NCBI RefSeq assembly: GCF_014526325.1
Contig: NZ_JACNMJ010000001.1
Coordinates: 372,001-436,000, forward strand
DNA length: 64,000 bases
Reading direction: 5' to 3'
From: Psychroserpens algicola
Lineage (GTDB): Bacteria > Bacteroidota > Bacteroidia > Flavobacteriales > Flavobacteriaceae
The position numbers were made by a program, and so were the translations under genes. Positions 41,485 through 64,000 of the stretch are shown one piece after another; within the stretch, counting starts at the first letter, position 1, and each line of letters opens with the position of its first letter. The notes under the pieces were generated by a model. The model saw only the letters and a list, made by a program, of their open reading frames with translations, ran no database searches and had not been told where the DNA came from.

Positions 41485-41497
41485 TTTTGATTTGGTT

Positions 41498-43195: not shown

Positions 43196-43280
43196 AATAG
43201 TATATTTTTATTGTTTTGTTAGGTCAAAAGTAGTCTCATTGACGTTTGAAAATTGTTTATTTAGTTTATCTAACACTTAG

Positions 43281-43310
43281 TGTAGACGAATGGTAGATTG
43301 CTGTAGACGA
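43281..43310 (-). promoter_or_regulatory. LytTR-like direct repeat upstream of the REC-GT2 gene
   Basis: Two identical 9-mers, TGTAGACGA, start at 43281 and 43302, exactly 21 bp apart (9 + 12). This is the spacing usual for LytTR-family binding sites. The site lies in the divergent gap between the REC-GT2 gene (85 nt) and the large membrane protein (62 nt). Confidence 0.6.
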
Positions 43311-47679: not shown

Positions 47680-49193
47680 ATCTCAACAGAACCATAATTC
47701 GAACAGTTTTAATCGTATCATACATATTGATTATCTCACTTGTTGTCTATGCTATTAGTGCATTATTTGGTTACCTCAATACTGGTGCTGACAGAAGTAC
47801 AATTCTTCATACCGAACTAAAGAAGATAGAACAGTACAAACCAAAAGTCATTTGGATGCCTCTAACTAATGAAGGCCGACCGATAGATAATGAAAGTCTC
47901 AAGGCAATTGAAACTGATTATTTAGATGCATGGTATGTAAAACAAGTGGCCTACAAAACCAATACCACAGCTGGTATAAACGATTATTATACAGATAATG
48001 CCCGAAAGAATATTTTTGATTTTATAACACTAAATTCAAATGAAAATATTAGCATAGAATCTACAACTCTTGAACATCATCCCAAGCTAGAATTTTTTAG
48101 TGAAGACGGACAATTAGCAGTAATTACCGACAATGATGTCATTGAATATAAGCGTGTTTATAAAGACAATAAATTGGTAATAGAAACTAATGAAATTTCC
48201 ACATATAAAGTGGTGCTTTTATTAGAAGATGGGTTTTGGAGAATTCGTCATTTGATAAAAGAAAGTACTGAAGACTATATAGTAGAACTCCATCAAATCG
48301 CTACCAATCATCTCAATATAAAAGGCATTAATTACTATCCACAAGCCACGCCCTGGGACATGTTTGGCGACTCATTTTCTAAAGATACGATTGCAAAAGA
48401 TTTTAAAATAATTAAAGAGGCAGGATTAAATTCTGTACGCCTTTTTGTACAATATGATGACTTCGGAAAAGCTAATGTTAACAAAGAAAAACTCGACAAA
48501 TTAAAATTAACTTTGGATGCTGCTGAAACGGTAAACCTCGGAGTAGTTATAACCCTTTTTGATTTTTATGGTAACTATGATGTTCTTGATTGGACACTAA
48601 ACATGCGTCATGCAGAAACCATAGTCTCTGAGTTAAAAAACCATAAAGCCATTATAGCCTGGGACATTAAAAATGAGCCTAATTTAGATTTTGAAACCCG
48701 AGGTAAAGCTAAGGTCATAGCCTGGTTGGAGCATATGATTGCTCATGTGAAATCTATAGACAAAGTTCATCCTATCACAATAGGTTGGTCAAATACGCAA
48801 AGTGCTTCTTTACTCAATGAGCAAGTCGATTTTATATCATTTCATTACTATGAAGATTTAGACAAATTAGGCACATCACTGGAAGCTTTAAAAAATGAAA
48901 TCCCGAATAAAACTCTGGTAATGGGCGAATTTGGCTTATCATCTTATGATGGCATTTGGAAACCTTTTGGCGATAGCGAAAAAGATCAAGCGAATTACCA
49001 TAAAAAAGCCCAAGACATTATTGCGCAACACAATTTGCAATATTTATCATGGACTTTATATGACTTTACTGAAATACCAAAGGAAGTCGTAGGTGGACTT
49101 CCTTGGCGTAAAAATGCTCAAAAAAATTTTGGTTTTATAGACGAAAATGGGGCAAAAAAGCCTGCGTTCACTTATATTTCTAAGCCGCAGTAG
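47673..49193 (+). CDS. Membrane-anchored GH5-like glycoside hydrolase
   Basis: The 506-aa protein has an N-terminal membrane anchor (~9-34), an NTF2-like region (~75-200) also seen in the large membrane protein of this operon, and a TIM-barrel hydrolase (~215-500). The clan GH-A catalytic pair is visible: acid/base E335 (WDIKNEP) and nucleophile E419 (VMGEFGL), with SFHYYEDL between them. It may trim or cut the nascent polysaccharide in the periplasm, as hydrolases do in cellulose, alginate or Pel systems. Its 3' end overlaps the convergent GT4 gene by 14 nt. Confidence 0.82.
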   Translation: MVNLNRTIIRTVLIVSYILIISLVVYAISALFGYLNTGADRSTILHTELKKIEQYKPKVIWMPLTNEGRPIDNESLKAIETDYLDAWYVKQVAYKTNTTAGINDYYTDNARKNIFDFITLNSNENISIESTTLEHHPKLEFFSEDGQLAVITDNDVIEYKRVYKDNKLVIETNEISTYKVVLLLEDGFWRIRHLIKESTEDYIVELHQIATNHLNIKGINYYPQATPWDMFGDSFSKDTIAKDFKIIKEAGLNSVRLFVQYDDFGKANVNKEKLDKLKLTLDAAETVNLGVVITLFDFYGNYDVLDWTLNMRHAETIVSELKNHKAIIAWDIKNEPNLDFETRGKAKVIAWLEHMIAHVKSIDKVHPITIGWSNTQSASLLNEQVDFISFHYYEDLDKLGTSLEALKNEIPNKTLVMGEFGLSSYDGIWKPFGDSEKDQANYHKKAQDIIAQHNLQYLSWTLYDFTEIPKEVVGGLPWRKNAQKNFGFIDENGAKKPAFTYISKPQ

Positions 49194-50400
49194 AATCAAA
49201 TTCTACTTTGTTTTTAATCGCTTTATCAGCTATTATTGTTGAAAATGTATTGACATACATATTTGAAATTTTTGACATTGGATAAGCTGTAGCGGCTTGA
49301 TAATTTGTTTTTCCTAAAGCTATTCTGTAAGCTTCATTAGTTACAATGTTTTCTATAGCCAAGGCTAAACTCGATACAGAGTTAGGGTCAAAAAATTCAC
49401 CTAAATATCCCTCATCTTTAACTAGTAAAGCTAAATCTCCTAAGTCTGGCATCACAACTGCTTTGCCATAACTTCCTGCCTGATGCAAAACTCCTGAGCT
49501 TCCTGTTGTTGACGTATACGGAAACACAACCACTGCGCTTTCATGAAATAAAGTTGGTACTTCATGTTCTTCAACATAACCTGTAAAACGAACTTTAGGC
49601 ACATGCTTATAATTTTCTTCAACTTGAGCTAAATATCCAGGCACATTTGGATTATCAGTTCCTGCAATAACAACTTCCAAATCTAATCCTGTCGATGCTC
49701 TAACCATCTCTACAGCCTCGATCATAGCTTCTACTTTTTTATAAGTTCCAAACTTTCCAAAAGTCATGACTTGCATTGGTCCTTCTGGAATGGTGTAATC
49801 TGGTTGTGTATTTGAAATTTCAAAAGTTCCGTGTGGAATTAATTTCACATTGTTAGCTTTATATTTTTCTTCTAAAATCGTTACATATTTTTGCATGGTT
49901 ACTGCAACTGTATCAGACTGTAGTATTAATTTGGTTAAGCTTGTTCCTATAAAACCATATACTTTTTGCATTAGTCTATTTGTTGTAAATCCTGCAGATC
50001 CTAAATCGACTTCCTCTAAAATATTATGAAGTAATACAATGTTTGGAATCCCTTTTAATTTACAAACTAATGGTAACATTAACCCTAAAGCTGCAGCAAT
50101 TTTTTTATCGCCAAACTTCATAAACTGCATATTAAATAAGACAGCGTCTGGTTGCGTAGCATTAATCGCTTTGGTAACATTTATAATGTTTGTATAACTA
50201 TTAAATGACCAACACTCATTAACTGTTACTGTACAACCGTCTTCAGTAAAAGCGATGTCTTTTGCGCCTTCAGTTTTATCAGTTAATAAAATAATTTCGG
50301 TAATAGACTGGTGTTGTCTAAAATGCTTAACTAAGTGATAAGCATATTCATTTAATGTCACTTTACTTGGTGGATATGCTGTTACAATTGCTAGTTTCAT
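49180..50400 (-). CDS. GT4-family glycosyltransferase
   Basis: The 406-aa protein is a GT-B transferase. The N-terminal MKLAIVTAYPPSKVTLNEYAYHLV is followed by LPLVCKLKGIPNIVLLHNILEE. The C-terminal nucleotide-sugar domain has VMTFGKFGTYKKVEAMIEA, KVRFTGYVEEHEVPTLF and FPYTSTTGSSGVLHQAGSYGKAVV with the donor-binding Glu region replaced by H-Q-A. It probably adds a sugar on the cytoplasmic face. It has its own promoter region with a LytTR-like repeat and a CAAATTTG -7-like box at 50437-50444. Confidence 0.85.
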   Translation of the reverse strand: MKLAIVTAYPPSKVTLNEYAYHLVKHFRQHQSITEIILLTDKTEGAKDIAFTEDGCTVTVNECWSFNSYTNIINVTKAINATQPDAVLFNMQFMKFGDKKIAAALGLMLPLVCKLKGIPNIVLLHNILEEVDLGSAGFTTNRLMQKVYGFIGTSLTKLILQSDTVAVTMQKYVTILEEKYKANNVKLIPHGTFEISNTQPDYTIPEGPMQVMTFGKFGTYKKVEAMIEAVEMVRASTGLDLEVVIAGTDNPNVPGYLAQVEENYKHVPKVRFTGYVEEHEVPTLFHESAVVVFPYTSTTGSSGVLHQAGSYGKAVVMPDLGDLALLVKDEGYLGEFFDPNSVSSLALAIENIVTNEAYRIALGKTNYQAATAYPMSKISNMYVNTFSTIIADKAIKNKVEFDSTAA

Positions 50401-50472: not shown

Positions 50473-50502
50473 TATAGATAAGGCGCTGTTTACTGTAGGT
50501 GA
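50473..50502 (-). promoter_or_regulatory. LytTR-like direct repeat upstream of the GT4 gene
   Basis: TATAGATAA (50473-50481) and TGTAGGTGA (50494-50502) start 21 bp apart and match the TGTAGACGA half-site in 5 and 7 of 9 positions respectively. They lie 72 nt upstream of the ATG and 28 nt upstream of the -7-like box at 50437-50444. Confidence 0.5.
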
Positions 50503-50521
50503 ATGGAATAAAAGTTTCGAT

Positions 50522-51775
50522 TTAGATTTTGTTAGCTTTTGATTTTGAATCAAAAAAGAAATAGATTATTTGGAATATGAGAAGTAGTAGCATGGCTATA
50601 ATTTGTACATGTACCACTTGCTCTAAATTCTTATGAAAGAACACGACTAGAGCCATTTGCAGCATTCCGAAGAGCCCTGAGAAAATAACAGGAATATAGC
50701 GATCTAACGACAAATAATAATATGCAAAAATGTTTGAGATTGCAAAGAGTCCGGTTGCCAAAGCATATTTCCAAAGAAACGGAGCCATGGCTAAATAATG
50801 TTCTCCAAATAATAAAGTGATTCCTGTTTCAGGAAATAAAGCGCAGATAAAAATAATTACTGATGCTATCACAGCAATATATCCAACATACTTAAATAAT
50901 ATCGGAGTTGTTGCTTTTCCTTCCTTTTTCAATCGAACAACTGTTGGTAATAATAACATTACAAACATCCAGGCAATAAAATAAACGATACGGCCAATAA
51001 GTGCCAAGGACGCATATAAACCTGCCTCATAAGATTCAAAATAGTGCTTTACTAATAGAATATCACTGTTGTTGATAATGATTTGTGTGAGCTCATAAAA
51101 AGCTGTAATGATAAAAAAGCTACGGACTTGTTTCGATTGATTTGCTTTTAAACGTATTGAGGTTTTGAAGCGTAAATTTTTAAACTTAAATGGAATTAAC
51201 CCAAAACCAAAAGAGATTAAAATCCCTAAAGCAATCACTACAGAAGACTGTATATTAAAAAGATAAATCAACCCAATTGTTACCAGTAATCGGGTTATCA
51301 TTTCTGATTGATAAGTCACTGATAATAGTTTATAGGCTTTTTGACCTTGAAACACGCCACGATTTACACTCATGATAAAGTATATTGGAACTCCAATACC
51401 AAATATGACAAACATAAGTGATGATGAAGTGTAAAAAACCTGTTGTAATTGTTTTGAAAACAGTATAATTAATACACCTAAAATTACACCTGTACCTATC
51501 GCGTTTTTATAAAGCTGTGAAATAAAACGCGTTAATATTTTATGTTCAAACAGTACTGAGAATTTTGCTGTTACTAGCTGAAAGGTCATCGCTATAAAGG
51601 ATAAAACCAATAAAAAGGTGATTAAAACTGCAGCATCAGCAAATTGCTCTGGACCTAAAAGTCGACCCAAAACCAAATTATATAAATAATTACCTCCATT
51701 AACTAATAATACACTAAGCATAAATAGCTGTTCTGGAGTTAATGTTTTTGATTTAATAGCTGAAATAACTTGCAT
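50522..51775 (-). CDS. Wzx-like polysaccharide flippase (MOP superfamily)
   Basis: From the ATG at 51775 the protein has 417 residues and about 12 membrane helices. Flippase-type features are an early GNYLYNLVLGRLLGPEQFADAAVLI segment and a RLVTIGLIYLFN half-repeat. It would move a lipid-linked glycan across the inner membrane. A longer frame from 51832 would overlap the STAS gene end and add a polar, non-conserved-looking extension, so it was not used. It follows the STAS gene by 25 nt. Confidence 0.85.
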   Translation of the reverse strand: MQVISAIKSKTLTPEQLFMLSVLLVNGGNYLYNLVLGRLLGPEQFADAAVLITFLLVLSFIAMTFQLVTAKFSVLFEHKILTRFISQLYKNAIGTGVILGVLIILFSKQLQQVFYTSSSLMFVIFGIGVPIYFIMSVNRGVFQGQKAYKLLSVTYQSEMITRLLVTIGLIYLFNIQSSVVIALGILISFGFGLIPFKFKNLRFKTSIRLKANQSKQVRSFFIITAFYELTQIIINNSDILLVKHYFESYEAGLYASLALIGRIVYFIAWMFVMLLLPTVVRLKKEGKATTPILFKYVGYIAVIASVIIFICALFPETGITLLFGEHYLAMAPFLWKYALATGLFAISNIFAYYYLSLDRYIPVIFSGLFGMLQMALVVFFHKNLEQVVHVQIIAMLLLLIFQIIYFFFDSKSKANKI

Positions 51776-51800
51776 GTTTTTTATGTTTTGATTTTTAAAA

Positions 51801-52079
51801 TTATGCTGCGACTGAACTCTTATACTCATCATAAATATCTTTACACCCGTTTCCTATAACTGAAAATATATGATTAGAGCGCAAAGCATTAGTCATTACC
51901 ATTTTTAAAGCCTCAACACCTGTTGCATCAATTGTGTTTACATTATCAATATTTATAGTAATATTTTTCACCGTATTGATCATGTGCTCAAAGTGCATAA
52001 TAAAGGATTTTGTTGTTGCTGTGGTTAAACTTCCATGTAGTTCAAATGTTCCGTTTTCTTCTAAAATTTGTAAAGCCAT
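51801..52079 (-). CDS. Small STAS protein of the exopolysaccharide locus
   Basis: The 92-aa single STAS domain has ITINIDNVNTIDATGVEALKMVM as the central strand-loop-helix and HIFSVIGNG as the late strand. A Thr stands directly before the loop Gly (IDATG), the position of the regulatory phospho-Ser in SpoIIAA-type proteins, so phosphorylation switching is possible. It is a paralogue of the STAS gene at 27670. As first gene of a unit with the flippase, it is well placed to regulate polysaccharide export (inference). Confidence 0.8.
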   Translation of the reverse strand: MALQILEENGTFELHGSLTTATTKSFIMHFEHMINTVKNITINIDNVNTIDATGVEALKMVMTNALRSNHIFSVIGNGCKDIYDEYKSSVAA

Positions 52080-52154
52080 AATTGTAATTTTTTAATGGTT
52101 ATGTGTTTAAATCTGACGCTAATATCTTAACAACTTCTGTGTAAACCCTTTTGA

Positions 52155-52184
52155 TTTCGACGGATGACATTTTACTGTAGATGA
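52155..52184 (-). promoter_or_regulatory. LytTR-like direct repeat between the STAS and TPR/beta-barrel genes
   Basis: TTTCGACGG (52155-52163) and TGTAGATGA (52176-52184) start 21 bp apart. The second extends as GATGAATGA, close to the sequences at 43281 and 50494. It is 75 nt from the STAS start and 48 nt from the TPR gene start. An inverted repeat GATGAAT/ATTCATC at 52180-52201 overlaps it. Confidence 0.5.
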
Positions 52185-52232
52185 ATGAAGCGGTATTCAT
52201 CCGTAACTTGCAATTAAGCAAATCAAACAGAT

Positions 52233-54296
52233 ATGAAGACTTTAAAATCATTGATATTAGCCTCCTTTTTATTACTTGTAGTTACGAGTAATGCTCAAAA
52301 TATGCAGGAAGGTTTTAACCACTTAGAAACTGGTGAATATGCATTAGCAGAAACATTTTTCGATACCGTATTAAAATCATATCCTAAAAACAAAACAGCT
52401 CGTTTATGCTACGGAAGAGCTGTGGGTTTAAATGGTGATCCAGAAAAAGCAAATCATATTTTTTTAGAACTGCTGAAAGAGTATCCAACCGATTTTGAAG
52501 TCAAACTCAATTATGGTGAGTCTTTATTATGGAAAAATGAATTTAGTGATGCCAAAAGCTACTATGAAGCATTAGTTTTTGAAGCACCTGAAAGTTTTCC
52601 TGCTCTATTAGGATTAGCAAATACTTTGTCTAACCTAAAAGACTATAATAATGCATTGATCTATGTGAATAAAGCTTTAGAGGTCTCTCCGGGAAATCCT
52701 AACGCTTTGATTTCTAAAAAATATATTTATTTAGGATTTGCTTATCAAAAGCAGCTCGCACAACTTTATGATGAAGCTGAAATATTATTAATTAAAAATT
52801 TAGAATTATTTGGTGAAGACAAAGAAACTTTAATGAATCTCGCGAATCTCTACTTAATTAACAATCAGTTAGATTTTGCAAAAGGCACATACAAGCGATT
52901 GGCTGAAAACCCTTTACACACAATAGAGGCTTTAAACGGATTAGCTTTAGTTGCTCATTTAAACGGAAAAGAAAAACATGCTTTACAATTGAGTCATGAT
53001 GCTTATACTAGCATAGATACCAAAACATCTGAAGTTTTGATACAACAAACCACTGAGCGTTACATTCAAGCCTTAATCTGGAATAAAAAATACAAACAAG
53101 CCGAACACAGTATTGATGAGTTAATAGCTAATAGTCCAAATGCAAATTGGGTTTTAGCATTAAGAGCAACATTAAATATTTATAAGAGTAACTTTAAAAA
53201 AAGTCTTAGTGACTACAATAGAATATTAGAAAACGACAGTACATCATTTGATGGCAATCTAGGAAAAGCGAATGCCTTAAAAGCATTGGGATACTATGAT
53301 GACGCTTATATTTCAGCAGAAAACACTTTGAAATTTTATGACAATCAAAAGGATGCTTTAAATTTCATCAACATCTTAAATACTAGTTTTATACCTGTTT
53401 CAGATTCTAAAGCAGCATACACTTTTGATAATGGCAATAACAGAGCGTTTACATTTAATACTAATGTATCGTTTCCGCTTTCAACAAAATTTAAGCTTTT
53501 AGGACGTTACAATTACAGAACAACAAATAATTCGGTTACAAATAACGAAGCAAATTCTAATGATATTTCATTGGGTTTATCTTACCAGTTAATAAATAAT
53601 ATCACCTTTAATGGCACTACTGGATTAACCACAGCAAACACTGAAAGTAATAACTATACCCAACTTTTAACAGATGTATCCTTCAATATTAAACCCTTGA
53701 AACTACAAACTTTAGATATTGGCTACAAGAGAGACATTCAAAGTTTTAACGCCGACTTATTAGATCGTGAGATTGTACAAAATAACTACTATGCAAATTA
53801 TAACCTAAATACAAATTTTAATTTAGGCTGGTTTACTCAATTTATGCACACTTCTCAAAATGATGGTAATAAAAGAAACTTACTATTTACATCTCTATAC
53901 TATAATCTATTCTCAAAGCCCTCTTTAAAAATGGGGTTAAATTACCAATATATCACTTTTGCAGACCAAGTGCCAACCGTATACTTTAGTCCAGAATCTT
54001 TTCAAGCAGGAGAAGTATTTTTAAATTTAATTAAAGATGAAAACATCACTAAATCCAAACAGTGGTTTTACGAGTTAACAGCTGCAACTGGGTTTCAATT
54101 TATTGAAGATGGAGAGCGCCAGAGCACCTATCGCGTTCAAGGAAAAATAGGTTATAAATTTTCTGAACGTTGTATGGCAAATGTCTTTGGAACAAGAAGT
54201 AATATTGCTTCTGCAACTGCTGCAGGTTTTACCTTTACCGAAATAGGCTTACGTTTTAAATGGCACTTATTTGATGCACCTGTATTTAGAAAGTAA
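52233..54296 (+). CDS. TPR plus YaiO-like outer-membrane beta-barrel protein
   Basis: The 687-aa protein has a signal peptide (1-21). Tetratricopeptide repeats run through about residues 25-385 (for example NHLETGEYALAETFFDTVL, DYNNALIYVNKALEVSPGNP). A C-terminal beta-barrel of some 290 residues follows, with alternating aromatic strands ending FKWHLFDAPVFRK. TPR plus barrel is the layout of secretin-like export pores of PgaA, BcsC and PelB/AlgK-AlgE type. It is therefore the best candidate for the outer-membrane exit of the polysaccharide made by this locus (inference). The barrel resembles the YaiO family. Confidence 0.82.
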   Translation: MKTLKSLILASFLLLVVTSNAQNMQEGFNHLETGEYALAETFFDTVLKSYPKNKTARLCYGRAVGLNGDPEKANHIFLELLKEYPTDFEVKLNYGESLLWKNEFSDAKSYYEALVFEAPESFPALLGLANTLSNLKDYNNALIYVNKALEVSPGNPNALISKKYIYLGFAYQKQLAQLYDEAEILLIKNLELFGEDKETLMNLANLYLINNQLDFAKGTYKRLAENPLHTIEALNGLALVAHLNGKEKHALQLSHDAYTSIDTKTSEVLIQQTTERYIQALIWNKKYKQAEHSIDELIANSPNANWVLALRATLNIYKSNFKKSLSDYNRILENDSTSFDGNLGKANALKALGYYDDAYISAENTLKFYDNQKDALNFINILNTSFIPVSDSKAAYTFDNGNNRAFTFNTNVSFPLSTKFKLLGRYNYRTTNNSVTNNEANSNDISLGLSYQLINNITFNGTTGLTTANTESNNYTQLLTDVSFNIKPLKLQTLDIGYKRDIQSFNADLLDREIVQNNYYANYNLNTNFNLGWFTQFMHTSQNDGNKRNLLFTSLYYNLFSKPSLKMGLNYQYITFADQVPTVYFSPESFQAGEVFLNLIKDENITKSKQWFYELTAATGFQFIEDGERQSTYRVQGKIGYKFSERCMANVFGTRSNIASATAAGFTFTEIGLRFKWHLFDAPVFRK

Positions 54297-55087: not shown

Positions 55088-57685
55088 TTATCTAATAATT
55101 AATTTTAATGGGGTATATAAGGTGTCGTGACTTAGTATCTTACAGAAATACAAACCTGCACTCAAGTTATTTCTATCTAAAGTCATTTCATTTGTTCCAG
55201 GAGTAGTTTTGTGAGTGGTTTGATACACAATCTTTCCTAATTGGTCATAGACTACAAATTGTACAGTCTCTGTGTGTTTTGCTGAAAACTGAATACTTGT
55301 TGATGACGTCATTGGGTTTGGCACAGCAGATAGCTTCGATGTTTCGTCAGCTATATCTTCAACTGATAAAGTATCTTGAGACAAACGTAAGTTTTCTAAT
55401 GTCAATTCTTTTGTAGTTGTAATACCATCTTCACTTACCATAGTAAATACTACAGTCACAACGTCATCTAAAACGGCATCAAACCCGCTTTCAGACTCAA
55501 AACCAGATATTGGTAATACATAATCCTGAATAACATTGTCTAATGTGATATTAGCGTGATATTGTTCTTCCCAGTTAGAAATACTTTCTTTTACAAAGGT
55601 AATTTGTAATTCACCTGTACCTCTAGCACTAAATTTCAGACTATTATAATCGCTAAGATCAACCGCCTTAAATCTTGGTGTTAATGCTCTATAAGCAGCA
55701 ACATAGCTACTTGTAGTTGCTTTTAATACAACGTTTCGTTCTATTGGGAAGTCTAAAACGTCATAGGTATAGTTGTTAGGAATAACAGCATACGTATCAA
55801 CTGTTGTATCTTGTTGAGAATCGTCGATTCCCCATGGTCCATCAGACATGAATAAATCGTCTGGTGTTGCGATGCCATCACCAATTCTAAATCCGATATC
55901 AAATAGATTTCCGGTTTCTAACTGTAGGTTTGTAATGTAATCTTGGTTAAGGTTTATGGTAGAGTTTAGGGCTCCAAATTCGCTTGTTTCAGTCGTTCTA
56001 AAACCTGCGTCAAAGGTGACGTTTTCGGTAGCATTGGTATTAATGATTTGTAGGTTAAGGGAACCATTAATATATTTTCCTTTTCTAACGAAAACCGTCG
56101 GAGGGATTGAATTATCATAACTTGAGATAGGCTTTTGAACCTCTAGTAGATTTAAGACTTCTTGACCCAGAGCATGTAAATCGTCTATAGCGTTGGTCCA
56201 AATTTGAAAGTTGTAAAATGTAACATTTTGTTCGTATTGATCTAGATTCCAATGGCTTTCGATGGCAAAATTTTCGTCATTATTTACCACTTTAGCAGAT
56301 AAACTCAATACAAACTCATAAGTGCCATCAACATTCTTGATAATAGATTTGATAAATGAATGTCCGTTGATATCAATGGTGTTGACTGAGATTAATTCGG
56401 CACCCAGCAGTCTATCACAAATATATTTTGTGTGTTCATAAACGCCATTTTCAGTTTTTAGTGCCATGATTGAAGCTACAGGAGTATTGCTTTCTATATA
56501 ATCAACTGCATAAATTTCGGTAGCATTGGTAATTGCTAATAAATCACTTGGCGTAGACTCGATAACTTCATCTTCATTAATCACGTCTAATGGAATAAAA
56601 TCTTCGAGTGTAAATTCAGAATTAGCATTTCTCTGAAAATAGCTATCTAATTTTGTCAAGCGCTTAGCTTTACTTCTATCGAATGTATAACCTGTTTTTG
56701 CACGATTAAAGTTTCGTGTATTTATTTGCTCTGAAAGTCTGTTATTACTTTCCAGTCCGCCATCATTTCCACCAGATGTCGGAGGTACAATGACTGCACA
56801 ATCACCAAAACCTGAACATGAAGGATCCTCACAATCTATAAGTCCGTCGCCATCATCATCAATTCCATTATCGCAAATTTCTTGTAAAACCGGAGCAGTA
56901 GGACAACGTGCACCATCATTACTTGAACTAGAAGGACCGAAAGCAAATAAATTAGAGTCCATTATACTATTCACAGCCAAATTTTGAACATTTTGAATGA
57001 CATAAATCGTCCCTGTTTGATTAGCCGACACATAAAAACGACCGTCAGCATCAAAATAGACAGCACCATAAGTGTAGTTTAACCCAGACAAAATTGGCAC
57101 TTCGCCTAGAGCTAGTACATTTCCATTAGAAGGATCAATGCGATATAAAATATTACTGTTTTTTTCTACAGAATATAAGTATCCATCAACAGCATTAAAT
57201 GCCCAATCATGAATATTTATATTTTGAGACAACGTTGTTGTTTCTTGATGTTGCGTGTAGTTTTCAGATTCGGGATTAAGATTAATTTTATAATACGTTG
57301 TTCCTCCTCCTTTTAAATAATAAACTCCTGTACTACTTATATCGCCAACATATCTGTTATTTGTTGGTAACTCATCTACATAAAATGTTGTTGTGGTAAA
57401 ATTTCTACCAATACGAACAATTGATTTTGCAGGTGAAGTTAACGATCCCCAAATAAAACCATCAGCAGGATTGTATGCTGCTGCATTGATATTACCCGAC
57501 GTGACATCTTGTGCAACTTGATAAGAATTACCTGAAGCCAAATCTACTGCGTAGACATCATTGTATTGAAATAGATAGGCGTTATAGTCACAATCGAATG
57601 GAATATCTTGCGCTTTTGTGATGAAACACATCAAGATTGTACTTAATAGGACTAGTTGATTTTTTAAAGTGTAAAGTTTACTCAT
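55088..57685 (-). CDS. Large exported protein with DUF6923-like and T9SS sorting domains
   Basis: The 865-aa protein has a signal peptide (1-25), then a beta-propeller-like N-terminal domain of the DUF6923 kind (FDCDYNAYLFQYNDVYAVDLASG). A calcium-type linker ICDNGIDDDGDGLIDCEDPSC follows (about 270-290). A central region has many beta strands, then a carbohydrate-binding-like segment (LKFSARGTGELQITFVKESISNW) and a C-terminal sorting domain (SAVPNPMTSSTSIQF, LSAGLYFCKIL). No catalytic residues are obvious. It is surface-exposed or released, possibly an adhesin or matrix protein. It has a perfect -7 box and LytTR-like repeats upstream. Confidence 0.82.
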   Translation of the reverse strand: MSKLYTLKNQLVLLSTILMCFITKAQDIPFDCDYNAYLFQYNDVYAVDLASGNSYQVAQDVTSGNINAAAYNPADGFIWGSLTSPAKSIVRIGRNFTTTTFYVDELPTNNRYVGDISSTGVYYLKGGGTTYYKINLNPESENYTQHQETTTLSQNINIHDWAFNAVDGYLYSVEKNSNILYRIDPSNGNVLALGEVPILSGLNYTYGAVYFDADGRFYVSANQTGTIYVIQNVQNLAVNSIMDSNLFAFGPSSSSNDGARCPTAPVLQEICDNGIDDDGDGLIDCEDPSCSGFGDCAVIVPPTSGGNDGGLESNNRLSEQINTRNFNRAKTGYTFDRSKAKRLTKLDSYFQRNANSEFTLEDFIPLDVINEDEVIESTPSDLLAITNATEIYAVDYIESNTPVASIMALKTENGVYEHTKYICDRLLGAELISVNTIDINGHSFIKSIIKNVDGTYEFVLSLSAKVVNNDENFAIESHWNLDQYEQNVTFYNFQIWTNAIDDLHALGQEVLNLLEVQKPISSYDNSIPPTVFVRKGKYINGSLNLQIINTNATENVTFDAGFRTTETSEFGALNSTINLNQDYITNLQLETGNLFDIGFRIGDGIATPDDLFMSDGPWGIDDSQQDTTVDTYAVIPNNYTYDVLDFPIERNVVLKATTSSYVAAYRALTPRFKAVDLSDYNSLKFSARGTGELQITFVKESISNWEEQYHANITLDNVIQDYVLPISGFESESGFDAVLDDVVTVVFTMVSEDGITTTKELTLENLRLSQDTLSVEDIADETSKLSAVPNPMTSSTSIQFSAKHTETVQFVVYDQLGKIVYQTTHKTTPGTNEMTLDRNNLSAGLYFCKILSHDTLYTPLKLIIR

Positions 57686-57746: not shown

Positions 57747-57797
57747 TTTCGATAGACGTATCTTAGACTAGGTTGGATTGTCTTTTTGTATCGATGA
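57747..57797 (-). promoter_or_regulatory. Three 21-bp-spaced LytTR-like half-sites upstream of the exported protein
   Basis: TTTCGATAG, CTAGGTTGG and TATCGATGA start at 57747, 57768 and 57789, each 21 bp apart. The last extends to GATGAATGG as in the exopolysaccharide promoters. The array ends 27 nt upstream of the -7 box, suitable for activation. A second, similar array lies at 58029. Confidence 0.5.
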
Positions 57798-57910
57798 ATG
57801 GTTTTTAATTATAAAATATATCGACTGTGTTTCATAATCAGAATCACACATGTTTAGAACACTATAATCTGACAACTATAGACATATGACATCAAAGGTG
57901 AGTTGTGAAA

Positions 57911-58085: not shown

Positions 58086-58796
58086 TTATAGCAAGTTTAG
58101 ACGCTTCATTAATTCTGGTCTGTTAGAACGACTAACAGGAATCACATCCTTTTTAATTAGTACACTGTTATCTTCAATATCAATAATTTTATCAACGTTG
58201 ATGATATAAGAACGATGTACTTTTAAGAATAAGTCGTTTGGTAATTTCTCTTCGATTTTCTTCAAAGTAGAATGCACTGTATAATTTTGATTTTCGGTTT
58301 TTACATGAATATAATCACCTTTAGCTTCGACCAAATAAATGCTTGGAATGTCAATTTTTATGAGTCGGCGGTCAATATTCACATACAAATCATTTCCTGA
58401 TGTAGATTCTACTTTTTCAGAAGCAGACGCCTCTATTGGCTTATTCGTTTTAGCTTCAGCTTTTAGGATTGCTTTTTGAAAACGATCTAGTGCAATAGGT
58501 TTCACCAAATAATCTACAATACAATCGTACTCAAAAGCCTGAATAGCAAAATTAGAATCGGAAGTTGTTAGAATAATTTTTGGTGGATTTTTAAGCGTTT
58601 CTATGAAATCAAAGCCTGTAAAATCTGGCATATGAATATCTAAGAAGATTAGATCAATTTCATTTTGATTTAAATATTTTATAGCTTGAATGGCATTTGG
58701 AAATTCCTCTAAAACATTTAAACTTTTTACATTAGAACATAACTGACCAATAATTGCTCTGGCTGTTGCTTCATCATCAATAATAATACAATTCAT
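58086..58796 (-). CDS. LytTR-family response regulator
   Basis: The 236-aa protein has a receiver domain (1-115) with D7/D8, phosphoacceptor D53 (IFLDIHMP), T77/T78 and K99 (LVKP). The DNA-binding LytTR domain (~138-236) includes DIPSIYLVEAKGDYIHVKTENQNYTVHSTLKKIEEKL and FLKVHRSYIINVDKI. It is the apparent output of the upstream kinase/Hpt chain, 15 nt after the Hpt gene. LytTR proteins bind paired 9-bp direct repeats about 12 bp apart. Such repeats occur upstream of four nearby transcription units. Confidence 0.92.
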   Translation of the reverse strand: MNCIIIDDEATARAIIGQLCSNVKSLNVLEEFPNAIQAIKYLNQNEIDLIFLDIHMPDFTGFDFIETLKNPPKIILTTSDSNFAIQAFEYDCIVDYLVKPIALDRFQKAILKAEAKTNKPIEASASEKVESTSGNDLYVNIDRRLIKIDIPSIYLVEAKGDYIHVKTENQNYTVHSTLKKIEEKLPNDLFLKVHRSYIINVDKIIDIEDNSVLIKKDVIPVSRSNRPELMKRLNLL

Positions 58797-58811
58797 AAAA
58801 ATTTTACCTCA

Positions 58812-59129
58812 TTATAACTCTTGTAAATAATTAGTCATGATTTGTAAAATAGCTTCAAACTCATCCTGAAGTAATGTTTTATCTTCAAGCAAATTAGTTT
58901 CATAATTTACGGCAACATCATAACTTTTCTCAAGGCCTAAAATACTAATTTTATGTTTAAGTTTGTGAACAATCTCAGCAGTAAGTTTATAGTCTTTTGC
59001 TGAAATGTTATCAAAATAGACTTGCTTTTCTATAGGAAATTCTGTTTTTATGATGTGGATTAACTTTTGTTCAAAAGCTTGATCTCCTCCAGACATACTA
59101 TGTATATATGACAAATTAGGTTGTTCCAT
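58812..59129 (-). CDS. Histidine phosphotransfer (Hpt) protein
   Basis: The 105-aa helical protein has H55 in VHKLKHKISILG, in the position of the xHxLK phosphohistidine motif. There is no other domain. It starts 2 nt after the second histidine kinase gene. It probably shuttles phosphate between the kinases or receivers of this operon and the LytTR regulator. Confidence 0.85.
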   Translation of the reverse strand: MEQPNLSYIHSMSGGDQAFEQKLIHIIKTEFPIEKQVYFDNISAKDYKLTAEIVHKLKHKISILGLEKSYDVAVNYETNLLEDKTLLQDEFEAILQIMTNYLQEL

Positions 59130-59131
59130 AA

Positions 59132-60178
59132 CTATTTTTTTAGTGTAAAATAAAATATTGTGCCTTCGTTAACTTTAGAGGTCAACCATATTTCACCACC
59201 ATAAAGTTCTACAATTTTTCTAACGATTGACAACCCAATACCTGTTGATTGATTTCCACTATCTAGGGTTTCAAAGGTTTTAAAAATCTTTTCAAAATAA
59301 GCGTCGGGAATACCTTTACCATTATCTTTTACGTAAAATTGCCAAAGGCTTCCTTTATCTTCCGCTCCAATTTCAATTCGTCCTTTATCTTTATCATTAT
59401 AATTAATTGCGTTTCCGATTAAGTTTTGGAAAAGCTGCTGAAGTCTGTATTTATCTCCTTTTACAACTGGTAATTTAGATCTAGAAATCTGAATGTGTTC
59501 TGGAACTTGAATAATCTTTAATATATCATCAATAAGCGTATTTAAATTGACATCATAAACCTCTATTTGATTTTTACCAATGGTTGAATATTCAAGAATT
59601 CCATTAATCAAGGTATCCATCTTTTCGACATTATTCCTAATAAGACGTATCGTTTTCTGACCATTCTCGTCAAAAGCATCACTATAATCTTCTTTTAACC
59701 AGGCTGTTAAAGCATCGATACTTCGTAATGGTGATTTTAAATCGTGAGATACCATATGAGCATAATCACTAAGCTCCTGATTTTGATGTGCTAATTCATT
59801 TAAAAGCGATTCTTTCTGTTTATTTATTTCTATAATCTCTTTGGTTTGATTGTCAATAAAGTCAACCAGTTTTGACCCATTCAAATCTAAATGTTCAGTG
59901 GGTTTATTATCCTCAAGATTATAAAATTTGAGCGTATCAATAACATTTTTGAGTTTATCTATTAACTCTTTCTGCTCGTTTGCCTCTTTTTGTAGTTGCC
60001 TGTTAGCCTTATACAATTCATCTGAACTTATAGACATTGCTCTTTGAATCATGGCAGATTGCTCGTCAAAATTATTGTAAGACCTATCAACAGCATTGAT
60101 GAACTCCTCTAAAGATGTATCATGCTTAAGCTCTTCACTTAAATATTTTCGTATTTGACGTTTGAGCAACGAATTCAT
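59132..60178 (-). CDS. Cytoplasmic histidine kinase (HisKA-HATPase)
   Basis: The 348-aa protein has no signal or membrane helix. An N-terminal helical/coiled-coil region (1-135) precedes the HisKA box YAHMVSHDLKSPLRSIDAL with H145, then N, G1 and G2 boxes (LIGNAINYN, VKDNGKGIPDAYFEKIF, STGIGLSIVRKIVELYGG). Without a sensor of its own, it is probably controlled by the FIST protein, whose stop overlaps this gene's start. The HisKA box is nearly identical to that of the PAS kinase two genes upstream, pointing to duplication. Confidence 0.93.
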   Translation of the reverse strand: MNSLLKRQIRKYLSEELKHDTSLEEFINAVDRSYNNFDEQSAMIQRAMSISSDELYKANRQLQKEANEQKELIDKLKNVIDTLKFYNLEDNKPTEHLDLNGSKLVDFIDNQTKEIIEINKQKESLLNELAHQNQELSDYAHMVSHDLKSPLRSIDALTAWLKEDYSDAFDENGQKTIRLIRNNVEKMDTLINGILEYSTIGKNQIEVYDVNLNTLIDDILKIIQVPEHIQISRSKLPVVKGDKYRLQQLFQNLIGNAINYNDKDKGRIEIGAEDKGSLWQFYVKDNGKGIPDAYFEKIFKTFETLDSGNQSTGIGLSIVRKIVELYGGEIWLTSKVNEGTIFYFTLKK

Positions 60179-61311
60179 TATTCACTTATTAACGTTATCG
60201 TCATTGTTTGATTATGTAACTGGCAAGCTATTTCTCCATGAAAAGGTGCAATTTCACCATAGGAATAAAAACCGCTTACTGTAGTATCATCGCCTAAAAC
60301 TTCTATTACTTCTTCAATTTCTTCTTCTACGCGTTGATCTAACACCAATTTACGACCAATACAACTGACTAAAAAGGCAACTTCTGGTTTGTGTTCTCTA
60401 TATTCTAAAGCCTGTTTTGCTGCTCGTTCTGATGCGTTAGCAATATGATCGACATTAGTCATCATCAATTGTACTTTTGAGTTTTCAGGAATATCTCCTG
60501 CAAGAATTACTGCGTTTTCAGCTTCATTTATATTTAAAATAGACCTTACTATCGATTGACTTTCGTCTTTTGAAGTGACATTTAAAGGATAGAGCAAAGC
60601 TGCTCCTGGTAAATCTTTAGCTTTATCACCTAAATAGGTTTTGTATAAATCTAAAGCAGGTTGACCATCTAGTTCGTATAGCGTATTATCTTTAGATTTG
60701 GTGACAATTCGTTCTGGACCAAAAGGTGTCCAGCCTCCATGAATTGAAAATGTAATTTCTAGAGATTCGCCATAAAATCCAACAGCTACAATTTCGCCTT
60801 CTTTTGGGTTTTCATTATACGAAGCTAATGTTTTTTCAAAGCGTGTATCATCACCACATAAACCTCCTGTAATTAACAGGTTATTTTGAGTAGAAGCAGT
60901 CATTCCTTTTGTAAGTTGACTTCCGTTAATAAAACTTCCTTCAGATACGACAAAGACATATTTTAAATCTTTTTCAGGAAATTGTTTTATCAAATCATTT
61001 CCTGTTTTAAAACTGTCTAAATCTGCATTTAAAACGTTACTTGTTTTAATAAGAAAGCGGCTTTTTTCAAACTCCATTGCAGTTATGGTGATGCTGTCTT
61101 CATTTACTGTACTTGAAGAAATTTCAGCACATGCTGATCCAAATACGATGTGACCATCTGGAAATATAGCTTTTATTTCCTCATAGATAGAATGCTCTTC
61201 AAGCAAATATCTATTACCGAACACAAGAACTAATGGTTCATTTAATTTTTGATTTTCACCAACATATGTCCACTGTTGATCTTTATGTTTTACTAATTGT
61301 ACTGTTTTCAT
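60178..61311 (-). CDS. FIST-domain sensory protein (NosP-like)
   Basis: The 377-aa protein has the FIST N domain (VLVFGNRYLLEEHSIYEEIKAIFPDGHIVFGSACAEISS, then NNLLITGGLCGDDTRFEKTL) and the FIST C domain (YKTYLGDKAKDLPGAALLYPL, CIGRKLVLDQRVEEEIEEV, VSGFYSYGEIAPFHGEIACQLHNQT). Some FIST proteins (NosP) bind heme and nitric oxide and steer a co-encoded kinase. The histidines near the C-terminus are compatible, but heme binding cannot be proven from sequence. It lies between two kinase genes with 2-nt and 1-nt spacing. Confidence 0.88.
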   Translation of the reverse strand: MKTVQLVKHKDQQWTYVGENQKLNEPLVLVFGNRYLLEEHSIYEEIKAIFPDGHIVFGSACAEISSSTVNEDSITITAMEFEKSRFLIKTSNVLNADLDSFKTGNDLIKQFPEKDLKYVFVVSEGSFINGSQLTKGMTASTQNNLLITGGLCGDDTRFEKTLASYNENPKEGEIVAVGFYGESLEITFSIHGGWTPFGPERIVTKSKDNTLYELDGQPALDLYKTYLGDKAKDLPGAALLYPLNVTSKDESQSIVRSILNINEAENAVILAGDIPENSKVQLMMTNVDHIANASERAAKQALEYREHKPEVAFLVSCIGRKLVLDQRVEEEIEEVIEVLGDDTTVSGFYSYGEIAPFHGEIACQLHNQTMTITLISE

Positions 61312-61313
61312 TG

Positions 61314-63272
61314 TTATTTTTTTAATGTAAAGTAGAAGGTTGTTCCTTTCCCTAATTCACTCTCTAACCATATGTTACCTTCATGCTGATTTACAATTTT
61401 TTTCACTATTGACAAGCCAATACCAGTAGAGTCTTTACTTTTATTTAGAGCATGGAATATCTTAAATATTTTATCATAAAACTGTTTTTCAATCCCTATC
61501 CCATTGTCTGAAATCGAAAATTCATAACAATCGCTTTTAGATGTAACGTCTATGGTGATTATACCTTCAGGTTTATCTATAAATTTAATAGCATTGCTTA
61601 TTAGATTTTGAAATAATTGCTGGAGTTTGACCTTATCTCCTTTTAGACTTGGGAGCTTATTGCTAACTGAAATTGAAACATGTTCTGGAACGTACAAAAT
61701 TTTAATTAAATCATCGACCAAAACAGCAATGTCTACATTGGTTTTTTCATCATTCATTGCACCAATACTGGAGTAATCTAAAATATCTGAAATAAGCAAT
61801 TCCATTTTCTCTAAAGTACGCTCTATATGATTAAAATTTTGTAAACTGACATCATCTAACTTACCTTTATTATCTTCTTTTATCCAGTTTATTAAAGCAT
61901 CAATACTTCGCAATGGCGATTTTAAATCGTGAGAAACAATATGAGCATATTCTTGAAGTTCGTTATTACTCTTTTCCAGTTCTAAAAGCAATTTTTCTTT
62001 TTGATACTCTAAAGTTTTTAAATCTGTAATGTCTAAATGAATCCCTATAGAGCCGACGACTTCACCATTTAAATCATAGTTTGGAGCACCACTAATTAAC
62101 CAATAGCGAATATGACCTTGTTTGGTTTTCACTTTTAGTTCATATGAATTAGATTGTCCTTGTTGCCGTTTTTTATTTTCTTCTGAAATAATATCAGACC
62201 CACCTTCAATTGGGAATAATAGCCCTGCCTTTTTTCCTAAAACTTCATCTTGAGTATAACCTGACATCTCAGAAAAACTCTGATTAATCATTAAAATTTC
62301 ATCATCGTTATTGACTTCGACTAATCCCAAATGCATATTAGCAATTATGCCATAATACTTTTGCTTTTGTGTTTCTAAACTTTTACGATATGTTCTTTTC
62401 AAAGTGACATCAGTAAAGGTCCATAAAAACCCTTTCGATTTTTCTCCAATGGTTATTGGCATATAGTTACGCTCAAGGATTTTACCATCTAACATCTCTA
62501 ATTCATCACCAATGACTAATTGCTTATCCTTATCTATAGCTTTCATTCTTTCAATAAAAGCTTCAGGGTCTTTAAATAGCATTTTGTTTTGTTCAGAAGC
62601 CGAGGTACAATCTATACCGATTAAATCATCAGGTTGTGCATTGATATTAAACAGGTTACAAAATTTCTTATTAGTTAATACAATGTTTCGGTTTTCATCT
62701 TCTAAAACAATACCACTATCAAGATTAAGTATGAGTGCCGCTAATCGGTTTTCAGATTCGATAAGTTTTTCTTCAGAAGCTTTTTGGTCTGTGATATCAC
62801 GAACAATACCTTGTGCTGCAATGGGTCTTTTCTTTTTATCAAAAACGACACTGGCATTGATATGTACCCATTTAACTTCCTTAGATTTTGTATAAACTCT
62901 GGCTTCGTAATCTTTAAAAAAACCATTGGTTTTGAGCTGATGAAACGAATTCATAGCGTAGTCGTAATCATCCTTATAAATCAGATTTTGAACATTCAAG
63001 GATTCTTTACTTATATCATAGCCAAATAATTTTGTTGCAGCTTCATTGAGTTTGAGAACCTTTCCTTCGAGATCCATTACCACATATGCATCGACAATAT
63101 TTTCGAATATACCTTGGAGTTGAGAAGATTTCTCTTCTAATAAAAGTTCTAATTTTTGAGATGTTAGAAATAGCTCTCTTGATTTTTCTTCAAGAATTTT
63201 TTCGGCAGCTTTTCTGGCAGCCTTTTCCCGCTCTAGAGCTCGTTTTAATATGTCAAGCTGATCTTGACTCAT
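61314..63272 (-). CDS. PAS-domain sensor histidine kinase
   Basis: The 652-aa cytoplasmic protein has an N-terminal coiled coil (8-55), three PAS domains with PAC tails (about 52-165, 172-292, 303-418), HisKA with H448 (YAHIVSHDLKSPLRSIDAL) and HATPase (LISNAIKFI, ISDNGIGIEKQFYDKIF, STGIGLSIVKKIVNQHEG). No membrane helix is present. Its start shares a base with the H-NOX stop, so the two are translationally coupled. H-NOX proteins usually inhibit such a kinase when nitric oxide is bound. Confidence 0.93.
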   Translation of the reverse strand: MSQDQLDILKRALEREKAARKAAEKILEEKSRELFLTSQKLELLLEEKSSQLQGIFENIVDAYVVMDLEGKVLKLNEAATKLFGYDISKESLNVQNLIYKDDYDYAMNSFHQLKTNGFFKDYEARVYTKSKEVKWVHINASVVFDKKKRPIAAQGIVRDITDQKASEEKLIESENRLAALILNLDSGIVLEDENRNIVLTNKKFCNLFNINAQPDDLIGIDCTSASEQNKMLFKDPEAFIERMKAIDKDKQLVIGDELEMLDGKILERNYMPITIGEKSKGFLWTFTDVTLKRTYRKSLETQKQKYYGIIANMHLGLVEVNNDDEILMINQSFSEMSGYTQDEVLGKKAGLLFPIEGGSDIISEENKKRQQGQSNSYELKVKTKQGHIRYWLISGAPNYDLNGEVVGSIGIHLDITDLKTLEYQKEKLLLELEKSNNELQEYAHIVSHDLKSPLRSIDALINWIKEDNKGKLDDVSLQNFNHIERTLEKMELLISDILDYSSIGAMNDEKTNVDIAVLVDDLIKILYVPEHVSISVSNKLPSLKGDKVKLQQLFQNLISNAIKFIDKPEGIITIDVTSKSDCYEFSISDNGIGIEKQFYDKIFKIFHALNKSKDSTGIGLSIVKKIVNQHEGNIWLESELGKGTTFYFTLKK

Positions 63273-63811
63273 TAATTTTGTTCAATTATAAAACGTACTT
63301 CTGTTCCATCGTCCTTAATCTTTTCTAAAACGATACTTGCAGAAGAATTAAAATACTCAAATGTTTTATTCATTAAGCCCAATCCAAAATGATGCATCGC
63401 TCTACTCGATTTATAATCCATTATTAATGAATTTTCGGTTTTTTCAATAACTTCAAAAGTAGGTAATTCGGCATCAGGATAAATTTTCCTCACCTCCACA
63501 TGAATATGGTTTTCTATAGACGATATCATTTCGATAGGATCTTTGTAGGTCGCTAAAAGCCCAGGATAACTATCTTCTAAGACACCAAAAAAATGTTCGG
63601 CATATACCAGTAATAAATCATCAATGCTCATTTTTGTCCTAGTACTTAAATGCTGTAATAATTGAAGCATCTCTGAGAACTTATATGTTCCTACTGCAGT
63701 ATAAACACCTTGAGATTCTAAATCAGAATTAGTTATGATATGATCTACCATTTCTAAACCAAACTTATCTTCTACTAAATCTAAAAATTCTGTAAATACA
63801 ATACCTTTCAT
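63272..63811 (-). CDS. H-NOX heme nitric-oxide sensor
   Basis: The 179-aa protein fits the bacterial H-NOX (HNOB) domain over its full length. It starts MKGIVFTEFLDLVE. The expected proximal heme ligand is H104 in NHIHVEVRKIYP. The heme-propionate clamp YxSxR is Y133-K-S135-S-R137 (DYKSSR). GLGLMNKTFEYF follows. It binds NO, and possibly O2 depending on a distal Tyr that I cannot place with confidence. It is encoded directly before its presumed kinase. Its start ATG overlaps the stop of the preceding receiver gene (TAATG). Confidence 0.92.
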   Translation of the reverse strand: MKGIVFTEFLDLVEDKFGLEMVDHIITNSDLESQGVYTAVGTYKFSEMLQLLQHLSTRTKMSIDDLLLVYAEHFFGVLEDSYPGLLATYKDPIEMISSIENHIHVEVRKIYPDAELPTFEVIEKTENSLIMDYKSSRAMHHFGLGLMNKTFEYFNSSASIVLEKIKDDGTEVRFIIEQN

Positions 63812-64000
63812 TATGCTTTTATTAATTCGTTAATACTCCAATAGGCAAATATCTTTTCTATTTTTTTAACATAGTCCTCATACTTCAAAGGCTTTAAAAC
63901 ATATCCTGCTACACCAATTTTGTAACACTCTAATAAGTCTTTTTGATTATTAGACGTTGTTAATATGATTGTTGGTATGTATCTCAACGTTTCATCGCTT
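63811..64000 (-). CDS. Response-regulator receiver domain (5' end beyond the window)
   Basis: The frame continues off the right edge. The visible 62 residues are the C-terminal half of a receiver: YIPTIILTTSNNQKD (the switch Thr region), then YKIGVAGYVLKPLKYEDYVKKI with the conserved Lys before Pro, and a stop right after the last helix. It is likely a single-domain Rcp1/CheY-like regulator. Its stop overlaps the H-NOX start by 1 nt, so it belongs to the same operon. Confidence 0.88.
   Translation of the reverse strand, partial: SDETLRYIPTIILTTSNNQKDLLECYKIGVAGYVLKPLKYEDYVKKIEKIFAYWSINELIKA

Follow-up and report, generated by a model that had tools for sequence, protein, structure and literature searches.

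The window, i.e., the whole stretch of 64,000 nucleotides that we analysed (G000:C8:372001-436000, within the 3.80 Mb genome of Psychroserpens algicola), ends in an operon on the minus strand that encodes, from its upstream end, a stand-alone receiver protein (REC), an H-NOX protein, a PAS-containing histidine kinase (HK1), a FIST protein, a second histidine kinase (HK2), a phosphotransfer protein (Hpt) and a LytTR response regulator. An earlier note on this DNA had described these seven genes, spaced by 15 nt or less, and all the open reading frames (ORFs) are indeed present, with gaps of 15, 2, -1, 2, -1 and -1 nt counted from LytTR to the end of REC. The H-NOX and FIST proteins are each encoded directly before a kinase, and the operon holds a single Hpt, as the note had stated. 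Pfam models match five of the seven proteins above their cut-offs. Only the C-terminal 62 aa of REC lie in the window, and this fragment scores 24.1 bits with Response_reg, below the cut-off of 30.2; on the adjoining contig sequence the protein is complete, with 141 aa (L082:11812-12237, equivalent to window positions 63811-64236).

A scan of genome contigs for relatives of the H-NOX protein, of which the best 80 of 168 were kept, gave together with our own locus a set of 81 loci. REC, Hpt and LytTR genes are each found in 79 of them and a FIST gene in 58, one of these being cut by a contig end. REC is missing in L047 and in L074, which begins at a contig end, Hpt in L005 (contig end) and L080, and LytTR in L005 and L033. 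The conserved core is thus composed of REC, H-NOX, HK1, Hpt and LytTR, and the FIST-HK2 pair is optional. The search of other genomes for the same gene order, proposed in the earlier note, shows that the order recurs in many of them, so that the arrangement is not a matter of chance. The combined operon, which the note had called unusual, is real as a combination, but it is not a one-off, as its core recurs in Flavobacteriaceae. Some variants were also seen, i.e., operons with three kinases (L138 and L140), a doubled Hpt-LytTR pair (L153) and a relay without H-NOX (L171); in G202, a genome with the relay and no H-NOX, a search for an H-NOX remnant found none. In a sample of 296 genomes of the phylum, HNOB domains occur in 22 and FIST domains in 70 genomes, and both occur together in 14 against 5.2 expected (hypergeometric P 3.6e-5, kinship ignored); in eight of these 14 genomes no more than about 3.5 kb separates the two genes. 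The proximity of FIST genes to hnox has already been noted in a published neighbourhood network (PMC8738867).

The proximal histidine (H104) and the residues Y133, S135 and R137 of the heme motif YxSxR are invariant in all 81 H-NOX proteins, 76 of which have Ala at residue 71. The nearest solved chains, 6bdd and 6bde, match over the full length (6bdd at 1.6e-96), and residues 1-179 of 6bdd are identical to the H-NOX protein of Kordia algicida OT-1 (locus L048), which has the same seven-gene order. We take 6bdd to be the published heme-bound Kordia H-NOX and 6bde to be its A71G mutant. The molecule name of both entries in the PDB is that of an aldolase, which does not fit, given the identity of 6bdd to the Kordia protein. 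The H-NOX protein of P. algicola is predicted to bind heme and nitric oxide (NO).

The FIST protein has the FIST and FIST_C domains and the adjacent kinase that are features of NosP-type systems. The earlier note had equated it with NosP; with the NCBIfam NosP model (NF041558) it scores 54.9 bits against an equivalog cut-off of 450, and we have discarded NosP as its family name. Its AlphaFold model (predicted local distance difference test score, pLDDT, 88.8) has human FBXO22 as the best fold match in the PDB, and the search for solved relatives by sequence returned three matches, all with E > 0.5 and none credible. Residue H366 is His in 50 of 58 aligned rows, Tyr in seven and a gap in one, and in a wider FIST set it is His in 40 of 43 rows. 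The seven rows with Tyr belong to a second FIST type (loci L002, L010, L012, L013, L029, L040 and L046), 20-23% identical to the FIST protein of P. algicola and encoded in the same slot between HK1 and HK2; the HK2 proteins of five of these loci cluster in the kinase tree with weak support (85/71). No histidine is invariant across both types, and the literature searched, mainly open-access, gave no heme-ligand residue for NosP. Because of the low NosP score and the lack of an invariant histidine, the role of the FIST protein as an NO sensor is a guess by analogy.

These observations bear on whether NO is the signal at all. The relay and regulon described below could exist as proposed and answer to heme, redox state, CO or another ligand, instead of NO or together with it, and we give this alternative about one chance in four. 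It would agree with the absence of an invariant FIST histidine and with the presence of two FIST types in one slot, as if the second ligand were changeable; in addition, the Vibrio protein CdpA may use FIST for heme (PMC8846402), and oxidants can be a stimulus for the H-NOX protein of Vibrio cholerae (PMC8738867). On the other hand, the H-NOX protein of P. algicola has no Cys, so that the zinc/Cys redox site is absent, and the YxSxR motif and the proximal histidine are invariant. The position of the distal Tyr involved in O2 binding in Tt H-NOX would presumably be Phe142 here, which is conserved.

Both kinases are non-hybrid, as Pfam finds no receiver domain in either of them. Their HisKA boxes share 22 of 26 residues over the YAH..KED stretch (counted by eye), in agreement with the near identity noted earlier. 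In the kinase tree, the relay kinases (HK1 and HK2, 60 rows) are split from FIST-associated kinases encoded elsewhere (6 rows) with a support of 100/100. The HK2 rows fall within a group of 36 rows (93/96) that includes HK1 rows from more distant genomes, and HK1 does not form one clean clade; many inner forks of this tree are weak, long branches are flagged and the root serves for drawing only. We had also considered that the FIST-HK2 pair was imported as a unit with the kinases that accompany FIST elsewhere, and rejected this in view of the split in the tree.

The complete REC protein matches solved response regulators, i.e., 6xvu, 8avv (bacteriophytochrome-response regulator) and Rcp1. Its residues E15, D16, D63, T94 and K115, and likewise D53 of the LytTR regulator, are kept in at least 97% of 79 rows, so phospho-acceptor residues are retained in both; Pfam finds both the REC and the LytTR domain in the latter. 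The 105-aa protein between HK2 and LytTR has no match in Pfam or NCBIfam at E 0.001. Its AlphaFold model (pLDDT 95, from 45 aligned sequences) has Hpt domains as its best matches in the PDB, i.e., 3myf and 3iqt (BarA), with a probability of 1.00 and template modelling (TM) scores of 0.76 and 0.73, at Foldseek E-values that are weak (0.039 for the best and 0.15). H55 is invariant in 79 of 79 rows and K58 is invariant or nearly so. The predicted helical fold and the conserved histidine support the assignment of this protein as an Hpt.

The earlier note had both kinases feeding this one Hpt. The shared Hpt in the operon stands, but direct feeding is less likely, since the kinases are non-hybrid and the stand-alone REC probably mediates between them and the Hpt. 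With such kinases encoded beside a separate receiver and an Hpt, the gene content points to a Spo0-like order from kinase to REC, Hpt and LytTR; the direction and specificity of phosphotransfer are deduced from it. Non-hybrid kinases can phosphorylate several receivers, and a further receiver exists at the locus, fused to a glycosyltransferase (see below). The kinases could thus phosphorylate LytTR directly, with REC and Hpt acting as a phosphate sink or a reverse path and not as parts of a linear four-step relay. We consider this rather improbable, as REC and Hpt each occur alongside the same partners in 79 of the 81 loci, as would be expected of an obligatory pair.

Next to the operon lies a putative regulon marked by a shared DNA box, a feature that the earlier note had overlooked. 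The regions upstream of REC and of D1, a gene after LytTR that encodes a DUF6923 protein with a type IX secretion system (T9SS) sorting tail, have the motif CCATTCGTC[G/T]ACACTTA in common. The box is built of two 9-bp direct repeats separated by 12 bp (CCATTCGTC-12-CCATTCGTC), in the layout of a LytTR operator. When up to three mismatches are allowed, 75 of 79 loci have the box in the 400 bp before REC and 53 of 65 have it in the 600 bp before D1, against 46 other occurrences in 1.6 Mb, some of them near U1, the gene upstream of REC, or further upstream of D1. A second copy upstream of REC starts exactly 21 bp after the first in all 39 loci that have one, and in most relatives the repeats are positioned about 115 and 94 bp upstream of the operon. 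Published LytTR sites consist of paired 9-bp repeats 10-13 bp apart (PMC11347149, PMC6193735, PMC4064291), and the published AlgR box CCGTTCGTC differs from CCATTCGTC in one base.

A profile built from 74 of the sites upstream of REC and D1 has nine matches at E <=10 in the genome of P. algicola. Six of the top seven fall in C8:415277-436760, i.e., in 22 kb of 3.80 Mb, all on the minus strand, and they precede REC, D1, U1, a STAS/flippase unit, a group 1 glycosyltransferase (GT1) and a response regulator fused to a family 2 glycosyltransferase (REC-GT2). A 97-aa protein encoded upstream of REC and outside the window (L082:12351-12644) has a weak LytTR-type box of its own, is present in some relatives and has no Pfam match. 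The same profile gives 110 matches in 21 of 22 genomes of relatives, 99 of which are no more than about 30 kb away from the REC box (hand count). In the neighbourhoods compared in 20 of these genomes, 105 of 107 boxes lie outside the matched genes, 104 are not within an ORF of at least 150 aa, and 83 of the 107 start 30-130 bp before a matched gene. Boxes precede REC in 20 relatives, D1 in 18, REC-GT2 in 17, and GT1 and STAS or the flippase in 15 each, and those before the last three targets were not part of the profile training.

The box follows the relay also in the phylum sample, where all 12 relay genomes tested have it, versus five of 18 genomes of the same family without H-NOX, in which it reached at most 21.4 bits. 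The strongest box without H-NOX (G234) lies 218 bp after a gene for a LytTR relative (L266:6182-7131, 58% identical), which might be a remnant or serve a different input. In G088 the system is dispersed, and a REC-kinase-Hpt-LytTR unit (L262) and a FIST-HK2 unit (L161) on separate contigs each have a box within about 100 bp upstream. Two further boxes of this genome (L261:7995-8027 and L265:7284-7303) lie apart from both the relay parts and the cluster.

Several of the boxes precede units of a polysaccharide-type cluster (Table 1). Matches to the flippase, STAS, TPR-barrel, GT1, glycoside-hydrolase-like, Ig-like, 1029-aa and REC-GT2 proteins, taken at E 1e-4 so that some may be paralogues, are each found in 18-20 of the 20 relatives. 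The TPR-barrel protein scores 52.5 bits with the PgaA model, below its cut-off of 366.65, and all other polysaccharide-synthesis models that match the cluster are likewise below cut-off, Pel and alginate not having been tested by name. D51 of REC-GT2 is kept in 17 of 19 rows, with a gap in two, and the protein is possibly a phospho-controlled glycosyltransferase that could add a direct branch from the relay to polysaccharide synthesis. The gene for the 1029-aa protein can be used as a marker of the cluster, as it is present in ten of the 296 genomes of the phylum, all ten among the 22 with H-NOX (P 5e-13, kinship ignored), and in eight of the ten it shares a contig with H-NOX at a distance of 11-21 kb.

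Table 1. Genes and LytTR-type boxes of the window, ordered from the operon towards the cluster accessories
Feature	Position in window	Strand	Basis
Stand-alone REC, phytochrome-RR/Rcp1-like	63811..64000 (window part, C-terminal 62 aa)	-	PDB relatives; conserved residues
H-NOX heme sensor (predicted), 179 aa	63272..63811	-	Pfam HNOB (PF07700) 132.5 bits (cut-off 25.5)
HK1, PAS-containing non-hybrid histidine kinase, 652 aa	61314..63272	-	Pfam PAS, HisKA, HATPase_c; no receiver
FIST-FIST_C protein, 377 aa, optional candidate second sensor	60178..61311	-	Pfam FIST 146.5 bits, FIST_C 125.2 bits
HK2, non-hybrid histidine kinase, 348 aa, HK1 paralogue	59132..60178	-	Pfam HisKA, HATPase_c; tree
Hpt phosphotransfer protein (supported by model), 105 aa, likely phospho-His H55	58812..59129	-	Fold; conserved His
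LytTR response regulator, D53	58086..58796	-	Pfam LytTR 77.9 bits, Response_reg 66.9 bits
Weak LytTR-type box before DUF6923/T9SS gene	57772..57803	-	Profile, 16.0 bits
D1, DUF6923 protein with T9SS sorting tail, predicted target	55088..57685	-	Pfam; TIGR04183
TPR and outer-membrane-barrel-like protein, polysaccharide-export-like	52233..54296	+	Pfam TPR; barrel inferred
LytTR-type box between STAS/flippase (-) and TPR-barrel (+)	52152..52187	-	Profile, 27.6 bits, E 1.2e-5, own genome
Small STAS-domain protein	51831..52079	-	Pfam STAS 28.8 bits
Polysaccharide flippase	50522..51832	-	Pfam Polysacc_synt_3 46.3 bits
LytTR-type box before group 1 glycosyltransferase	50489..50520	-	Profile, 20.6 bits, E 0.00175, own genome
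Group 1 glycosyltransferase (GT1)	49180..50400	-	Pfam Glyco_trans_1_4 63.7 bits
Glycoside-hydrolase-like protein (GH2 TIM barrel)	47673..49193	+	Pfam Glyco_hydro_2_C 43.7 bits
Possible Ig-like-repeat protein, 405 aa	46462..47679	+	Sub-threshold Pfam Invasin_D3/Big_1 only
1029-aa membrane-like protein, cluster marker	43373..46462	+	No Pfam/NCBIfam match; membrane nature inferred from sequence
LytTR-type box before REC-GT2, divergent from 1029-aa gene	43277..43310	-	Profile, 26.7 bits, E 2.2e-5, own genome
REC-GT2, response regulator fused to family 2 glycosyltransferase	42008..43195	-	Pfam Response_reg 85.5 bits, Glycos_transf_2 77.5 bits
Short GT2-like protein, cluster accessory	41498..41992	-	In 14/20 relatives
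Mannose-6-phosphate isomerase, cluster accessory	40483..41529	-	TIGR00218 141.6 bits, above cut-off; 11/20 relatives

The output described for many H-NOX and NosP systems is the metabolism of cyclic di-GMP (c-di-GMP). GGDEF domains were not detected in any of 19 genomes (P. algicola and relatives, two of them less than 90% complete), with eight of 14 controls positive, and EAL domains were not detected in the one genome searched, that of P. algicola, with six of 14 controls positive. The suggestion of the earlier note that a LytTR regulator takes the place of a c-di-GMP enzyme as the output agrees with these results.

Considering these findings together, we propose, with moderate confidence, that the locus encodes a phosphorelay with several inputs that senses NO and has a transcriptional, polysaccharide-type output, acting through LytTR and the shared box without involving c-di-GMP. 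The H-NOX protein, with NO bound to its ferrous heme, would set the activity of HK1, and the FIST protein would set that of HK2. Both kinases would phosphorylate the stand-alone REC, from which the phosphate would pass to Hpt and then to D53 of LytTR. The LytTR protein would bind the paired 9-bp direct repeats before its own operon, leading to autoregulation, as well as those before D1, the STAS/flippase unit, the glycosyltransferase and the receiver-glycosyltransferase fusion, and would activate or repress these genes. The product may be biofilm matrix, and NO would then change matrix production without the participation of c-di-GMP. The likely function of the system is the NO-dependent transcriptional control of extracellular polysaccharide and of a secreted protein.

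Several points weigh against this proposal, besides the lack of an invariant histidine in the FIST proteins. The whole case is computational, known from sequences and models. The 81 loci are mutually related and their counts are not independent, the hypergeometric P values ignore relatedness, the REC and D1 box counts are partly circular, both sets having trained the profile, and the genome scan scored 150 first-look candidates per genome. The boxes of D1 and U1 in P. algicola itself are weak (16.0 and 14.5 bits), one relative (G310) has no box, the REC-H-NOX-HK unit (L147) and the cluster (L263) of G088 show none at E 2, and AlgR is not always found on repeats 12 bp apart (PMC4064291). Eleven of the 110 box matches in relatives lie far from the locus; these, together with the weak boxes in the five genomes without H-NOX and with a link between box and LytTR that is drawn from sequence, would agree with the boxes being the site of another regulator, or another promoter element, that adjoins the relay by chance. 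We nevertheless regard this explanation as improbable, roughly one chance in eight, as the box has the published LytTR layout, resembles the AlgR box and tracks the relay across genomes and with two dispersed relay parts in G088. It is slightly less probable still, about one chance in ten, that we are dealing with an ordinary two-component operon and an unrelated polysaccharide cluster next to it. Linkage alone can keep neighbours together, and three relay genomes out of the 13 in the phylum sample (G084, G029 and G202, the last also without H-NOX) are without the marker gene, which counts also against our proposal; the confinement of this gene to H-NOX genomes and the boxes before the cluster genes argue for a functional connection.

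A wider version of the proposed phosphorelay can be formulated, which we put forward tentatively and rate as rather unlikely to hold in all its parts. It would be a self-contained module of the Flavobacteriaceae leading from NO to matrix, with two interchangeable gas or heme sensors that each have a paralogous kinase of their own, one REC-Hpt-LytTR relay controlling itself and the adjacent polysaccharide genes by way of the one shared box, and the additional phosphorylation of REC-GT2, wholly without c-di-GMP. If true, its one signal would affect both gene expression and, directly, the synthesis of polysaccharide. The interest of the system lies in the fact that genomes without GGDEF matches carry these sensors and that one conserved box ties the sensors to named genes. 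Cultured marine Flavobacteriaceae would allow its regulon, wiring and phenotype to be tested directly, as the same gene order is present in some Kordia, Winogradskyella and Psychroserpens strains, and for Kordia algicida the H-NOX protein from this operon matches a solved structure.

The literature on H-NOX, NosP, LytTR, Bacteroidetes/Flavobacteri, Kordia algicida, Hpt and exopolysaccharide that we searched, covering mainly open-access sources in part, gave no account of this regulon, which is not proof of novelty. In terms of architecture alone, there is an analogy to the Bacillus Spo0 system, which also combines several kinases, a single-domain receiver, a phosphotransfer protein and a DNA-binding regulator, but Spo0B differs from a typical Hpt and the Bacillus genes are dispersed. 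An NO-sensing kinase that feeds a shared Hpt, LuxU, has been described in Vibrio, i.e., H-NOX/HqsK in V. harveyi and V. parahaemolyticus and NosP/VpsS in V. cholerae. The NosP systems (NosP-NahK/NosK-NarR/NosR and the NosP-VpsS-LuxU pathway of V. cholerae, in which the phosphate reaches the shared Hpt; PMC12570481, PMC8846402, PMC6769237) have in common with the locus studied here that a FIST protein is encoded with a kinase, whereas our FIST protein falls well short of the NosP cut-off, the kinase is of the non-hybrid type and the output is a LytTR protein. In the HnoX-HnoK-HnoB systems of Shewanella and Vibrio (PMC8846402, PMC8738867), H-NOX controls an adjacent kinase with a biofilm-related output, as we propose here, but HnoB is a c-di-GMP phosphodiesterase, in contrast to the DNA-binding output in genomes that lack GGDEF matches. 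In its logic, the nearest known system is the H-NOX/HahK-SypF-syp pathway of Vibrio fischeri (PMC8738867), in which H-NOX likewise adjoins a kinase, the signal likely passes through an Hpt and the output is transcriptional, an exopolysaccharide regulon. In that pathway, SypF contains the Hpt as a domain, whereas P. algicola has REC and Hpt as separate proteins, an optional second input of FIST and kinase, and a LytTR regulator, and, unlike in the syp system, the relay and the polysaccharide genes are in one locus with one box. Since V. fischeri reaches a similar logic from other parts, the system described here is a variant and not a new kind. By gene arrangement it is also comparable to Legionella, where Hnox2, the kinase Lpg2458 and the CheY-like Lpg2457 bring together H-NOX, a kinase and a single-domain receiver (PMC11237717, PMC8738867). 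No step downstream of the Legionella receiver is known from these reports, whereas an Hpt and a LytTR protein follow in the operon of P. algicola, which would thus offer a full downstream path for the H-NOX, kinase and CheY-like arrangement.

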